Origin: Verrucomicrobiales bacterium
GTDB lineage: Bacteria > Verrucomicrobiota > Verrucomicrobiia > Verrucomicrobiales > DEV007
Assembly: GCA_029233965.1 (NCBI GenBank)
Contig: JARGOP010000001.1
Location: 144,598-208,597, forward strand
Direction of reading: 5' to 3'
DNA: 64,000 nt
Shown: piece by piece, positions 28,644 through 39,054 of the stretch
How the letters are laid out: each line of letters opens with the position of its first letter
How positions within the stretch are numbered: the stretch's first letter is position 1
Made by a program: the position numbers and the translations under genes
The notes under the pieces: model-generated
Told to the model about the DNA's origin: nothing
Seen by the model: the letters and a program-made list of their open reading frames with translations, nothing else
Databases searched by the model: none

Positions 28644-30959
28644 TTAAATGGGATCGTCCTGGCCAATGACCTGAACCTCAGTCTCCAGTTCGATCCCCCG
28701 TTCATCGAGCGCTTTTTTCTTTATCCCCGCAATCAAATCGAGCACATCTCGAGCCGTTGCGGCGTTTTCGTTCACAATAAAGTTGCCATGGATCGAGCTG
28801 ACCATCGCTCCGCCGACACAGGACTCCTTCAGCCCCATTTCATCGACTAACTGCCCGGCGCCGATTCCCTCCGGGTTCTTGAAGATGCATCCCGCACTGG
28901 CCGCGACGGGCTGGGAGGAACGGCGCTTGTCCTTGGAGGCATCCATACGCTCCGCGATTTCGTGGTCGAGAGCGGGAGTCCCCTGAAACACGGCCGACAC
29001 TGCTACGTTGTGAGCCAACTCGGGAACGTTCCGGTAGTGATGGCGAATCTCCCCGACCGGCTTTTCCAAAACCACTCCCTCGGCATCAATCATCGTAACA
29101 CTGACGACCTGATCAAAAGTTTCCCATCCCATTGCCCCCGCATTCATTCGCAGGCTCCCGCCCACTGCGCCGGGAATACCTTCCATCCACTCGAAATCGC
29201 CGATCCCCGCCGACTGTGCTGCGGCCGCGAGTGCTTTAAACTTTACCCCCGCCCCGGCACGTATCGTGTTTCCGTCGACAGTAATCTGGGCGAACTCACC
29301 GCGAACAGGATTCACCACGACTCCGGGGATTCCACCGTCACGCACTAAGAGATTGGATCCCCTTCCGACAACCCGCAGCGGGGTTCCTGACTCGGCACAA
29401 TAGCGAACAATCCTTGCGAGTCCACTCACTGTCGAAGGCTCGATCCAGAACTGAGCCGGACCTCCCACTTTCATCGTGGTGTGTTTGCGCATCGGCTCAT
29501 AAAGCCTGACTACCCCCTCGTCTTCGCCAAGAATCGTTTTCAGGTGATCCATCCCGGCAAGGTCCCTGGCGAGCCTCGTGCCGACTTCGTGAATATTGCC
29601 GGCGCCGAGGGTCAAGACCCAGTCACCTGCCTTGAGCTTCCGCCCCACCGGAAGGTGAAGAGAACTCAGGTCCGGATGGCTCTGCGCCTGAGCCACCTCG
29701 CCAAGCTCCCGAATCGCTTCCACAATCGTGGCGCCGGTGATGCCGGGAATGGGCTGCTCACTCGCGGGGTAGATGTCCGTGACCCAAAGCTCATCGACTC
29801 CATCAAAGCATTTCCCAAATTCATCGCGCAGAAGCTGCGTGCGGGAGAAGCGGTGAGGTTGAAAGAGGCAAATCAATCGTCCGGCGTGCTGGCTGCGGGC
29901 GGTCTGAATCGTCGCCGCGATCTCGGTGGGATGGTGGCCGTAGTCATCCACCACGGTGACAAAGTCCTCGTTGCGCTTGAGTTCGAAGCGACGGCGGGCG
30001 CCACGAAATGACCCGAGAGCCTCGTCAACCAGGTCAAAAGAAACGCCGGCTTCGTCCGCCAGTGCGATCACGGCGAGCGCATTGAGGACATTGTGGCGCC
30101 CCGGAATCCCGAGCCGGACCCGTCCATGCTCCCCCCCCTTTTTATAGACGGTGAATTCAGTTCCCGCCCCCTTCGGAGCAAGGTCGCCTGCAGAAAAGTC
30201 AAGTTCCCTCCGCCAGCCGTAGCTCACTGCGTTATCTCTCCCGGAACAAACCCCGGAAGCATGATGATCATCGCCACAGTAGAAGATTTTGCCGGAGGTC
30301 TGATCGCAGAACTGACCGAATACCGCGCGGATCTGATCAATTCCGCCCTCGTAAAAATCAAGGTGCTCTTCCTCGACATTCAGAAGGATAGCGTGCTCAG
30401 GATGAAAATTGACGAGCGTTCCATCACTCTCATCCCCCTCCGCGACGAAGAACTCCCCTTTCTCGTCCCAGTTCGCATTCGTGCCCAGGATCGGGATCTC
30501 AGCCCCGACGTAGTGGGAAGGAGCTTTCGCTCCGACCTTGAGAACGTGCGCCGCTAAAGCCGAAGTCGTCGTTTTTCCATGAGTTCCCGCAACAACGATG
30601 CCTTTTTTACTCTGCATGATTGACGCGAGAGCCTCGGCGCGCCGGAGCATGGGAATCCCTTTTTCGACGGCAGCGTCGAAAGCAGCATTCCCCGACTTGA
30701 TTGCGCTGGAATAAATCACCACTTCTGCATCTGCGACCGCTTCCGCAGAGTGTGGCGAGGAGAATTTCAAACCGGCCTTTTCGAGGCGTTCCGTCTCGCG
30801 GGAGGTAACTCGATCCGAACCAGAAACGTGATGCCCGAGCCCCAGCAATAGAGAGGCAAGCCCGCTCATTCCCGAGCCGGCAACCCCGATCAAATGAACT
30901 CGAACGGGAGCATCCCGATTCCCGAACTTCGCCCCCCAGACATCACAAATATTACTCAT
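28644..30959 (-). CDS. murC-murB: MurC-MurB fusion (muramate ligase + MurNAc-forming reductase)
   Basis: A 771-residue fusion of two peptidoglycan precursor enzymes. Residues about 1-480 are MurC: VHLIGVAGSGMSGLASLLL, the P-loop GTHGKTTTSALAAHVL, and DDYGHHPTEI. Residues about 481-771 are MurB, the FAD-dependent UDP-GlcNAc-enolpyruvate reductase: TTMKVGGPAQFW, GRGSNLLVRDGG, GIPGAVGGSLRMNAG and AGCIFKNP, with Cys at the place often occupied by the proton-donating Ser. Both catalytic units look intact. The fusion would couple UDP-MurNAc formation to L-Ala addition. It follows murG by 15 bp. Confidence 0.96.
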   Translation of the reverse strand: MSNICDVWGAKFGNRDAPVRVHLIGVAGSGMSGLASLLLGLGHHVSGSDRVTSRETERLEKAGLKFSSPHSAEAVADAEVVIYSSAIKSGNAAFDAAVEKGIPMLRRAEALASIMQSKKGIVVAGTHGKTTTSALAAHVLKVGAKAPSHYVGAEIPILGTNANWDEKGEFFVAEGDESDGTLVNFHPEHAILLNVEEEHLDFYEGGIDQIRAVFGQFCDQTSGKIFYCGDDHHASGVCSGRDNAVSYGWRRELDFSAGDLAPKGAGTEFTVYKKGGEHGRVRLGIPGRHNVLNALAVIALADEAGVSFDLVDEALGSFRGARRRFELKRNEDFVTVVDDYGHHPTEIAATIQTARSQHAGRLICLFQPHRFSRTQLLRDEFGKCFDGVDELWVTDIYPASEQPIPGITGATIVEAIRELGEVAQAQSHPDLSSLHLPVGRKLKAGDWVLTLGAGNIHEVGTRLARDLAGMDHLKTILGEDEGVVRLYEPMRKHTTMKVGGPAQFWIEPSTVSGLARIVRYCAESGTPLRVVGRGSNLLVRDGGIPGVVVNPVRGEFAQITVDGNTIRAGAGVKFKALAAAAQSAGIGDFEWMEGIPGAVGGSLRMNAGAMGWETFDQVVSVTMIDAEGVVLEKPVGEIRHHYRNVPELAHNVAVSAVFQGTPALDHEIAERMDASKDKRRSSQPVAASAGCIFKNPEGIGAGQLVDEMGLKESCVGGAMVSSIHGNFIVNENAATARDVLDLIAGIKKKALDERGIELETEVQVIGQDDPI

Positions 30960-35474: not shown

Positions 35475-36170
35475 TTAGCGGCGTGCCGCAAGGAGACGCA
35501 TCACGAAGTAGAGAAGCTGGCCCAGGGATGCAATCGCCGCGACCGTGTAGGTCATCGCGGCCCAGAACAAGGCATTCTTCGCCTTATCGTGATCGAGACT
35601 CCCCATCGCGTGAGAAGTGTCCAACCAGGCAAGGGCACGGTTGCTGGCATCGAATTCCACCGGAAGAGTGATGAACGAAAACAAAGTCGTTGCGGCGAAC
35701 ATGATCACCCCGATCAGCAGCACCGTAGTATTTCCTGAAGCCGCCATGAAAAGGCCTGCCATCAAAACATACATCATGAATTTGTTGGAAAGGTTGACGA
35801 CAGGAACCAGCGCTGAACGCATCTTGAGCGGACCGTAGGCCCGCGCATGCTGAACCGCGTGGCCGCACTCGTGAGCGGCCACGGCCGCAGCGGCAACATT
35901 CCTCTGGCTGTAGACGACATCGCTCAGATTAACTGTCTTGTTGAGCGGATTGTAGTGATCCGTCAGTTGGCCGGGAGTCGAAATAATCTGAACATCAGAG
36001 ATTCCCTCATCCTGCAGCATTTTGGCTGCAATTTCCGCACCGGACATCGCGATGGGCCGCTCAGAATACTCCCGGAAACGTTTCTTCAGTATCGAACCGA
36101 CCCAAGTGCTGACAAGCATGGTCGCAATGGTAATGACGTAGTATATGATATCGATTCCCCCGAAAGACAT
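35475..36170 (-). CDS. YugP-type zinc metallopeptidase (membrane)
   Basis: A 231-residue membrane protein with an N-terminal helix, the zinc motif AAHECGHAVQHA (HExxH variant with HECGH), and about three further membrane segments, ending at MRLLAARR. QIISTPGQLTDHYNPLNKTVNLS and FDASNRALAWL are YugP-family features. These proteins are predicted intramembrane zinc peptidases of unknown target. It converges with the histidine kinase gene. Confidence 0.88.
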   Translation of the reverse strand: MSFGGIDIIYYVITIATMLVSTWVGSILKKRFREYSERPIAMSGAEIAAKMLQDEGISDVQIISTPGQLTDHYNPLNKTVNLSDVVYSQRNVAAAAVAAHECGHAVQHARAYGPLKMRSALVPVVNLSNKFMMYVLMAGLFMAASGNTTVLLIGVIMFAATTLFSFITLPVEFDASNRALAWLDTSHAMGSLDHDKAKNALFWAAMTYTVAAIASLGQLLYFVMRLLAARR

Positions 36171-36260: not shown

Positions 36261-36303
36261 AAAAAAGCGACCCCGTCCGGACTACCACTGCCCGAACAGG
36301 GTC
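36261..36303 (-). terminator. Intrinsic terminator downstream of the rlpA pseudogene
   Basis: On the minus strand GACCCTGTTCGG pairs over 12 bp, with two G-T wobbles, with CCGGACGGGGTC across an 11-nt loop, followed by GC and six T. It separates the rlpA pseudogene from the YugP gene downstream. Confidence 0.88.
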
Positions 36304-36387
36304 ACCACTACCTGAGCCTCTGAAACTCAGAAATTTCGGTTATCGAATCACAACAGGTCGCTCACACAACCACCTTCTTGTACCTTC

Positions 36388-37326
36388 TCAGTGAATCAAG
36401 CGCTGCGCCTCCTCGGCAGTCCGGAAGCCGCCGGACGTCACCACGAGATAGAGCGTATTCGCAGGAGATTGAATCACCGCGGTCCCGATTCCGGAACGAA
36501 GCAGTGCATCATTCATCTCAGACGCATTCGATCCGCGGCGAAACGCCCCGAATTACACCCGATAAGGAGCCACTGCCGCGGACGACGAACTCCGCGGAGG
36601 CAGTGCCGCGGGCGCAGACCGGGCAGGAATCTGTGCGCCGGCGCTCAGCGGAACCAGCTCCCACTGCCCGCCAACCGAACGGTTGGCCGTGTTGTGAGCG
36701 ATTGCCGGCGGCGCATACTGTTCCGCCGGAATTCCGTACTGGACGTCTTTCCTCCTTCCAACAAGGACGCGCTTTTCGGAAGGAACCGTCGACTGCTCAT
36801 TCCCGGCAAGTCGGGCCGCGTCCTCCGGTTCATTCCCGGCTTCAGGGAGAGGGTCCTTTTTAAAGGCTTGAGACGGGGCGAATCGCTTTTGTGCAGGCGC
36901 ATCAGTGGAGTTCGGGACCAGCAACGGCGCCGATCGCTCCTTACTTACCGCAGATGAAAGCGGCGGCATCGTTCCAATCACCATCATCGAACCACGGGCA
37001 GCCCGCTCCGGCGGCAGGCCAGTGTGCCTTGCAGCCGCCCGCGACAAATGAATCAAGGTGGAATCTGATCGCTTTCGATCATTGATCCGGACATCAACCA
37101 TTTTTCCGCTCTCGAAGTTCGCCACCCTCCCCATCGTCCCCAGAGGCAGGGATGAATGAGCGCCGGTCAGGGCCGACACTTCGTACAATTCTCCGCTTGC
37201 GGTTACTCTTCCCTGCAACTGATCGCTGTAGATTCGAATCATGCCGCCCTACGCCCCCGCCGATTGGGCACGTAAACCTCCACACGACAGCACAAAAATC
37301 AGAAACGGTGTGAAACGGGCAATCAT
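36388..37326 (-). pseudogene. rlpA: RlpA-like protein with SPOR domain, two in-frame stops
   Basis: One continuous frame of 313 codons is broken only by TAG at codon 26 (37249-37251) and TAA at 36553-36555. Codons 1-25 give a signal peptide (MIARFTPFLIFVLSCGGLRA) behind a good GAGGAG site at proper spacing. Between the stops lies the RlpA double-psi barrel: GRVTASGELYEVSALTGAH, PLGTMGRVAN, VRINDRK and LIHLSRAAA, then a long Pro/Ala/Ser linker. After the TAA the frame continues directly into a SPOR-like domain (FGAFRRGSNASEMNDALLR ... LYLVVTSGGFRTAEEAQRL), ending at TGA. RlpA is a septal lytic transglycosylase or lipoprotein targeted by SPOR. Both stops could come from one C-to-T change each (CAG, CAA). 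Recent decay or sequence error are the main readings. Confidence 0.85.
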
Positions 37327-37687
37327 AGAATCTCCTCGCTTAGCTCAGTAAGATTTTAATAAAAATTAAGCCATTATTTTAAATTTTATTAATTTTTAAT
37401 CTATGCATTTCTTTTCGCTTTCCGCTCTTATTTTTCCCCGACGGTTCCTCGTCCTCATTCTGCATTTTCCCCTCTCGCTCTACCCAAATAGTGCGCCGGA
37501 CGGGCATCTGCGAAGCCGCGGCCGATTTGGGTTATGACCCGGGAAGGGGAGCCTTTCCGCCAACAATTTTGTGAGCAAGCCCGTTCCGGGGAGGAGATGA
37601 TTGTTCTCGCATCAGTTGCAACGAGAACCTTACTTTTTCCCCGAGAAGCTATCCCTGATCAGAATCCACCGTCCTGAACGGGGACCA
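37327..37687. other. AT-rich intergenic region upstream of rlpA
   Basis: About 360 bp without a supported gene. The first 90 bp (37340-37430) are extremely AT-rich, with inverted-repeat-like runs such as TTTTAATAAAAATTAA and TTAATAAAATTTAAAAT, and probably hold the rlpA promoter. The rest has normal composition and no recognisable feature. Confidence 0.5.
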
Positions 37688-37758: not shown

Positions 37759-39054
37759 TCAGGTCAAGAGATCCAGAACCGGCACTCCCTTGTGCGCCAC
37801 CGTGAAGGGCCGCTTACTCGGGCTATAGAGAACTTGATCGAGAGGAAGCCCCAACGCGTGAGCAATCGTCGCGTTGAAGTCAGGAATCTTGATGGCATTC
37901 TCGATCACCGTCTCACCACCTTCATCAGTCTTCCCATAAACGGTGCCTCCTTTGACCCCGCCACCGGCCAGCACTGAGCTGAAAGCCTTCGGATAATGGT
38001 CGCGACCGGCATTCTGGTTGACCCGGGGAGTTCTGCCGAACTCGGTCGTGAGAACCACGATCGTGTCCTTCAGTTTTCCACGGGCTTCGAGATCTTCGAG
38101 AAGAGCACCCATTGCCTGGTCCAGAATTGCGCACTTTTCCGGAGCTTCCACAAAGACGTTATTGTGCATGTCCCATCCATTCAGGGACACTTCGACGGCC
38201 CGGACATCATTTTCCACGAGTCGTCTCGCAAGGAGACAGCCCTGACCGAATGAGTTGTCGCCATAGCGTTCCCGCGTCGCTTCGTTTTCGTCCTTGAGGT
38301 CGAACGCTTTCAGATCTTCGCTTTTCATGAGGCGAACGGCGTCTTCATACATCTGTGTGTAGGCCCGGACCTGCTTCACGTCGTAGCGCTGATGAAACTC
38401 AGCATCAAACTCCTTCGCCAGCCCTAGTCGTTCCTCAAAAATCTCCTCCTTCACGCCGCGAAGCTTTGAGTTCCTCAAACCGGATTCCGGATCGTTGATC
38501 GCGAGCGGCTCATACTGAGGCTCAAAAAAACCGCCACCACCATTGATGCGACTGCTTCCGCCAACGTAAACGGAGCCCGGAAGATTTTCGTTCAACTTTC
38601 CTTTGAACTTCAGGGCCCATGCGCCGATTCCCGGGTGCTTGATCGTAGCCCGCTCCTCGTAGCTGGTGTGCATGAGATAATTTCCCTGCGCGTGGGCTCC
38701 CGCCGTTGAAGTCAATGATCTCACAATTGCCAACTTGTCGGCCTGCCCCGCCAACGCCGGGAGATATTCGGAAATCTGAATACCATCGACATTGGTCTGA
38801 ATCGTTTTCGTCACTCCCTGATTCTCATGCCCCGGCTTGGTATCGAAGGTATCGAGGTGAGTCATCCCCCCGCTCATGTAAAGGTAAATGACATGCTTGG
38901 CCGCATTCTCCCGGGGAGTTAGCCCGAGATTTGGCCCAAGGGCACTATGACTGCGGGTTGTCATCCCGAGAGCACCAACTCCGAGGAAAGTTTTTGCGGT
39001 TCCTTCCATGAAGCGCCTGCGGCTCCATTCGTCGGATTTGAGTGCGGATTTCAT
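37759..39054 (-). CDS. DUF1501 protein with Tat signal
   Basis: A 431-residue protein with a twin-arginine signal (SRRRFMEGTAKTFLGVGALG), so exported folded. The body matches DUF1501: HVIYLYMSGGMTHLDTFDTKPG, GSVYVGGSSRINGGGGFF, TIVVLTTEFGRTPRVNQNAGRDHY and the C-terminal IKIPDFNATIAHALGLPLDQV, an alkaline-phosphatase/sulfatase-like fold. In PVC bacteria such genes adjoin DUF1549/1553 genes, as here (44 bp from that gene). Function unproven, presumably periplasmic polysaccharide-related. Confidence 0.92.
   Translation of the reverse strand: MKSALKSDEWSRRRFMEGTAKTFLGVGALGMTTRSHSALGPNLGLTPRENAAKHVIYLYMSGGMTHLDTFDTKPGHENQGVTKTIQTNVDGIQISEYLPALAGQADKLAIVRSLTSTAGAHAQGNYLMHTSYEERATIKHPGIGAWALKFKGKLNENLPGSVYVGGSSRINGGGGFFEPQYEPLAINDPESGLRNSKLRGVKEEIFEERLGLAKEFDAEFHQRYDVKQVRAYTQMYEDAVRLMKSEDLKAFDLKDENEATRERYGDNSFGQGCLLARRLVENDVRAVEVSLNGWDMHNNVFVEAPEKCAILDQAMGALLEDLEARGKLKDTIVVLTTEFGRTPRVNQNAGRDHYPKAFSSVLAGGGVKGGTVYGKTDEGGETVIENAIKIPDFNATIAHALGLPLDQVLYSPSKRPFTVAHKGVPVLDLLT

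Follow-up and report, generated by a model that had tools for sequence, protein, structure and literature searches.

RlpA and septal glycan cleavage

RlpA has been described as the most widely conserved of the SPOR proteins (PMC6895207). It helps daughter cells to part by cleaving denuded septal glycan, and both lytic transglycosylase activity and septal localisation are known for RlpA of P. aeruginosa (PMC9712689). When rlpA is lost, P. aeruginosa grows as chained cells if osmolarity is low; in E. coli the loss has no recognisable phenotype (PMC9712689). In the SPOR domain of the P. aeruginosa protein, the conserved side chain of Q270 touches the denuded glycan (PMC6895207).

The locus considered here lies in a stretch of 64,000 nucleotides (the window; contig JARGOP010000001.1, positions 144,598 to 208,597) of a Verrucomicrobiales genome, G000. 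This genome is a 96%-complete MAG whose 151 contigs total 4.83 Mb, and it belongs to a genus known chiefly from MAGs. In the window, the gene rlpA, predicted to encode a septal lytic transglycosylase, is very probably a recently inactivated unitary pseudogene. No report of rlpA loss in Verrucomicrobia was found in the literature consulted. The kind of event is already known, and this locus is a new example of it.

Structure of the interrupted rlpA frame

All features described in this section lie on the minus strand. From its frame, domains, full-length orthologs and synteny, the putative pseudogene spans 36340..37326, that is, 328 codons plus an ancestral stop, with three internal stops. The order of its parts is signal peptide, DPBB barrel, Pro/Ala-rich linker and SPOR domain, in one frame and with no indel. 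Codons 1-25 (37252..37326) encode a predicted signal peptide, recognised by its hydrophobic N-terminus MIARFTPFLIFVLSCGGLRAQ and by alignment to G006, one of the two nearest relatives. Stop 1, a TAG, follows at codon 26 (37249..37251), a variable site at which relatives have Val, Ala, Glu or Gln. The DPBB (RlpA) barrel occupies codons 28-105 (37012..37245), scores over the PF03330 cut-off (E 9e-11) and retains the TASGE, AH and IND motifs; with the G006 ortholog as query, the barrel matches P. aeruginosa PA4485 (4avr). The SPOR domain, codons 253-311 (36394..36570), is cut by stop 2 and, once read through it, also exceeds the PF05036 cut-off in the genome search (E 1e-4). This second stop, a TAA at codon 258 (36553..36555), falls on the Gln of the SPOR motif YRVQFGAF, which is encoded by CAG or CAA in aligned relatives. 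The top NCBIfam match of the whole frame is TIGR00413 (RlpA), with E 2e-17 and 64.1 bits, which is below the model cut-off of 82.15.

The third stop is a TGA at codon 313 (36388..36390), where most relatives have Tyr or Phe and from whose codons it is at least two base changes away. Reading past it yields EGTRRWLCERPVVIR and then TAA at 36342-36340, the ancestral stop (codon 329), which aligns with the ends of the orthologs; the corresponding intact C-terminus of G006 is YEGSRRGWRERPVVIR. The usual C-terminus in the genus is W-I-x-(Y/F)-E-G-x-R-R-G-W-x-E-R-P-V-V-I-R followed by a stop, and that of the window is L-I-H-stop-E-G-T-R-R-W-L-C-E-R-P-V-V-I-R-stop. The conserved tail past stop 3 (36343..36387) is thus damaged as well: Trp320 is replaced by Leu, as is Trp310, both being invariant in the 15 orthologs compared.

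Around the frame, little appears to have changed. An RBS-like AGGAGA is found at 37331..37336, by sequence and by comparison with G006, and a terminator-like hairpin with a T-run (36261..36303) is kept in G006 and G012, the other nearest relative. Both of these elements, as well as the AT-rich upstream region, remain similar to their counterparts in G006. Both flanking genes are intact, a DUF1501-type gene upstream (37759..39054) and a gene for a YugP-like zinc peptidase downstream (35475..36170).

A preliminary description of the locus had placed signal peptide, RlpA barrel and SPOR domain in a single frame without a frameshift, behind a good RBS and ahead of a strong terminator; the frame is confirmed, and an RBS-like sequence and a terminator-like hairpin are present. 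The strand, which it left unstated, is the minus strand. It had also counted two stops only, in a frame of 313 codons ending at 36388. The TAG at codon 26 and the TAA at codon 258 are where it put them, but the TGA at codon 313 is a third in-frame stop, and the intact orthologs run on to ...RPVVIR, so that the full frame has 328 codons plus stop. Similarly, its derivation of both stops from Gln codons by C-to-T changes suits codon 258 but not the variable codon 26. Both the gene end and the number of stops are therefore corrected here.

Orthologs, synteny and copy number

Intact orthologs of rlpA are present in about 18 genomes of the same genus. In the nearest relatives, G006 (67% identity; JARGOD010000019, 100% identical) and G012 (50% identity; JARGPJ010000003), the gene is open, syntenic and free of all three stops. 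This is the comparison with relatives that had been suggested as a check, and it bears out the earlier view of the gene as an rlpA recently lost. The three genomes share the order ftsZ-, ftsA-, ftsQ- and ddl-like genes, a murC-murB fusion, murG, a diacylglycerol-kinase-like gene, a response regulator, a histidine kinase, the YugP-like peptidase, rlpA, DUF1501 and DUF1549, where all names other than rlpA were read from sequence. The gene is located near the dcw cluster. Across the 96%-complete G000, DPBB and SPOR searches gave a single match each, and no second copy of rlpA was detected.

The fusion of murC and murB (28644-30959) forms one frame of 771 codons. It is found in 31 genomes of the genus, mostly as a full-length fusion and otherwise as fragments at contig ends.

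Origin of the stops

Stop 1 terminates translation directly after the predicted signal peptide, and stop 2 replaces an invariant SPOR Gln that, judging from the motif, is probably equivalent to Q270 of P. aeruginosa. Unless the stops were read through, the cell could make no exported barrel and no enzyme targeted by SPOR, and the locus would be without function. Programmed readthrough or recoding giving a full-length RlpA would be in keeping with a frame whose 328 codons can all be aligned without an indel, yet it would require three different stops to be read, none of which occurs in the orthologs. Each of these codons terminates ordinary genes nearby: TAG ends the ftsA-like and phoR-like genes, TGA ends murG and the DUF1501 gene, and TAA ends most others. 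Since TAA, TAG and TGA all act as normal terminators of adjacent genes, simple reassignment is excluded, and recoding, which had been considered unlikely from the start, or readthrough has a practically negligible probability. It is slightly more plausible, though still very improbable, that the stops were created by assembly or sequencing error, or by a mixed-strain consensus, and that the true gene is intact. The sequence is indeed the consensus of a MAG in 151 contigs, and against the pseudogene itself it may be said that no frameshift or large deletion has occurred so far. However, in comparison with G006, three internal stops are found in the 328 codons of rlpA and none in ten neighbouring genes, which together supply 4,440 codons, so that a generic sequence error is unlikely; the comparison of neighbouring genes with G012 agrees. 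In addition, an error would have to account for the two or more base changes at codon 313 and for further changes at conserved positions of the tail. Stops seen in a few shadow-strand ORFs of the neighbourhood are artefacts of picking ORFs on the wrong strand.

A split of the gene into two or more working pieces, which the preliminary description had offered as an alternative to loss, has an equally slim chance. An ATG 6 bases past stop 1 opens 229 codons up to stop 2, and the barrel residues are retained, so that a barrel might be restarted there, two codons after the stop. Since stop 1 parts the signal peptide from the barrel, this product would have no export signal, yet the substrate is periplasmic. 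The SPOR piece would be deprived by stop 2 of its first strand and its Gln, would itself be cut by stop 3 and would lack the two Trp residues, and no relative has a split rlpA. A less improbable, though still unlikely, alternative is a stepwise shortening, in which stop 2 came first, an exported barrel without SPOR remained useful for a while, and stop 1 killed the gene later. Barrel-only RlpA-like frames do occur elsewhere in the genus, and the distribution of amino-acid changes can be cited for it. When lineage-specific changes were counted in G000 and G006 with G012 as outgroup, stops excluded, 20 were unique to G000 and 17 to G006 before stop 2, versus nine and two past it (one-sided p 0.03, weakly significant). 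However, the two regions do not differ significantly from each other (Fisher p 0.16), and branch dN/dS by a codon model was uninformative because synonymous sites are saturated. The end state is, moreover, the same dead gene.

The overall tally of changes is compatible with a recently inactivated pseudogene and at the same time holds points against one. Over the whole frame there are 29 missense changes in G000 and 19 in G006 (p 0.10), and because change before stop 2 is not faster than in the intact gene of G006, most of the frame shows little decay. For every nonsense change, about 21 missense changes would be expected; three nonsense changes and roughly ten excess missense changes are seen, a tally that fits a young pseudogene, with nonsense changes somewhat above expectation.

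Loss of rlpA elsewhere in the genus

An ortholog profile run on 34 genomes of the genus detected rlpA in the majority, though not in every one. In G024 (L094 3400-4116), the barrel is deleted and frameshifts are present, with the 3' part kept, and the sister G007 is intact. Similarly, rlpA of G002 carries a TAA in frame as well as a frameshift, and its sister G029 is intact; the G002 assembly is fragmented, and the gene is sited at the edge of a contig. In the slot flanked by DUF1501 and YugP, G031 (L092 2897-3142) has a degraded barrel with an in-frame stop, which is an older trace of the same kind of loss. In G021, just about 100 bp separate these two genes and rlpA has been excised. In four further genomes (G023, G014, G022 and G011), rlpA is absent along with more of the segment.

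In G022 (L145) and G011 (L149), the response regulator, histidine kinase, YugP and rlpA genes are all absent and the DUF1501 gene adjoins the diacylglycerol-kinase-like gene; this segment was lost either en bloc or stepwise, gene after gene. Elsewhere, the alignment of the DUF1549 homolog of G014 (L147 1604-4072) contains two in-frame stops, and that of the histidine kinase homolog of G032 (L151 1663-3003) contains one. These are possibly further decaying genes, or alignments that overrun an end.

On a tree of murCB and YugP, losses fall at six places at least, including G000 (hence at least five other lineages), nested among intact sisters. Deep nodes of this tree are poorly supported; most of the sister groups used have bootstrap values of 86-100, and G019 is placed beside G021, G023 and G031 with a value of just 64. 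Estimated genome sizes, rounded and corrected for completeness, are 3.8-5.1 Mb in genomes that have lost rlpA and 4.8-8.4 Mb in those that keep it. The loser side is smaller in all six sister comparisons (one-sided sign test, 1 in 64), a comparison that was not planned beforehand. For G000 the gap is slight, 5.0 versus a mean of 5.3, and G000 is larger than G012.

Because close relatives are intact and other lineages have lost rlpA separately, mostly in smaller genomes, the locus is best read as ordinary gene loss at an early stage. The ancestor would have carried one rlpA copy beside the dcw cluster. Selection on the gene probably lapsed in the G000 lineage, and relaxed selection would be the cause of what followed: three nonsense and several damaging missense changes near the 3' end may then have accumulated, leaving the upstream region, the RBS, the terminator and most of the frame intact-looking. 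The loss in G000 would be one of several independent rlpA losses that accompany genome shrinkage in the genus. As a single event it is ordinary. The genus as a whole is more useful, as it offers a natural series (intact, freshly broken, decayed, excised) in which to ask when septal glycan cleavage becomes dispensable.

Septal enzymes that remain

Denuded glycan is generated by amidases. A loss of amidases together with rlpA does not apply here: Amidase_3 proteins are present in all 34 genomes of the genus, and seven Amidase_3 matches remain in G000. The cells apparently tolerate the loss of rlpA, and presumably separate by means of such other wall hydrolases.

Two replacements for RlpA were considered and rejected. 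SpoIID acts at the chlamydial septum (PMC6635528), and SLT enzymes were the other candidate. Neither PF08486 (SpoIID) nor PF01464 (SLT) has a match in the 34 genomes; control genomes do match both. The lytic transglycosylases of the genus are thus largely unaccounted for by the SLT and SpoIID searches. Because neither family was found in the 34 genomes while amidases are kept in all, it might be supposed that members without rlpA clear denuded septal glycan by an unrecognised enzyme. We consider this improbable, as MltA, MltG or other known families outside the search may hold an ordinary answer.

Comparison with known systems

The RlpA of the genus is built like that of P. aeruginosa: behind the signal peptide come a DPBB barrel, whose IND motif bears the Asp, a linker and a C-terminal SPOR domain; the glycan-binding Gln is there in intact orthologs, and the gene sits near division genes (PMC6895207, PMC9712689). 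In contrast to the P. aeruginosa gene, the window copy has three stops, one of which replaces the SPOR Gln, and its tail is damaged. In addition, the SPOR domain of the genus runs straight into a short conserved RPVVIR end, and NDRK stands in place of the P. aeruginosa NDRG/PF context.

As an instance of gene loss, the genus resembles the pseudogenes of genome reduction, such as those of Serratia symbiotica (PMC5013485). The resemblance is that a single gene at a conserved site appears with stops or frameshifts, as a relic or cleanly deleted, in lineages with smaller genomes. The setting differs: the bacteria of that account are insect endosymbionts (PMC5013485), whereas those described here are uncultured Verrucomicrobiales whose genomes are estimated at 3.8-5.1 Mb.
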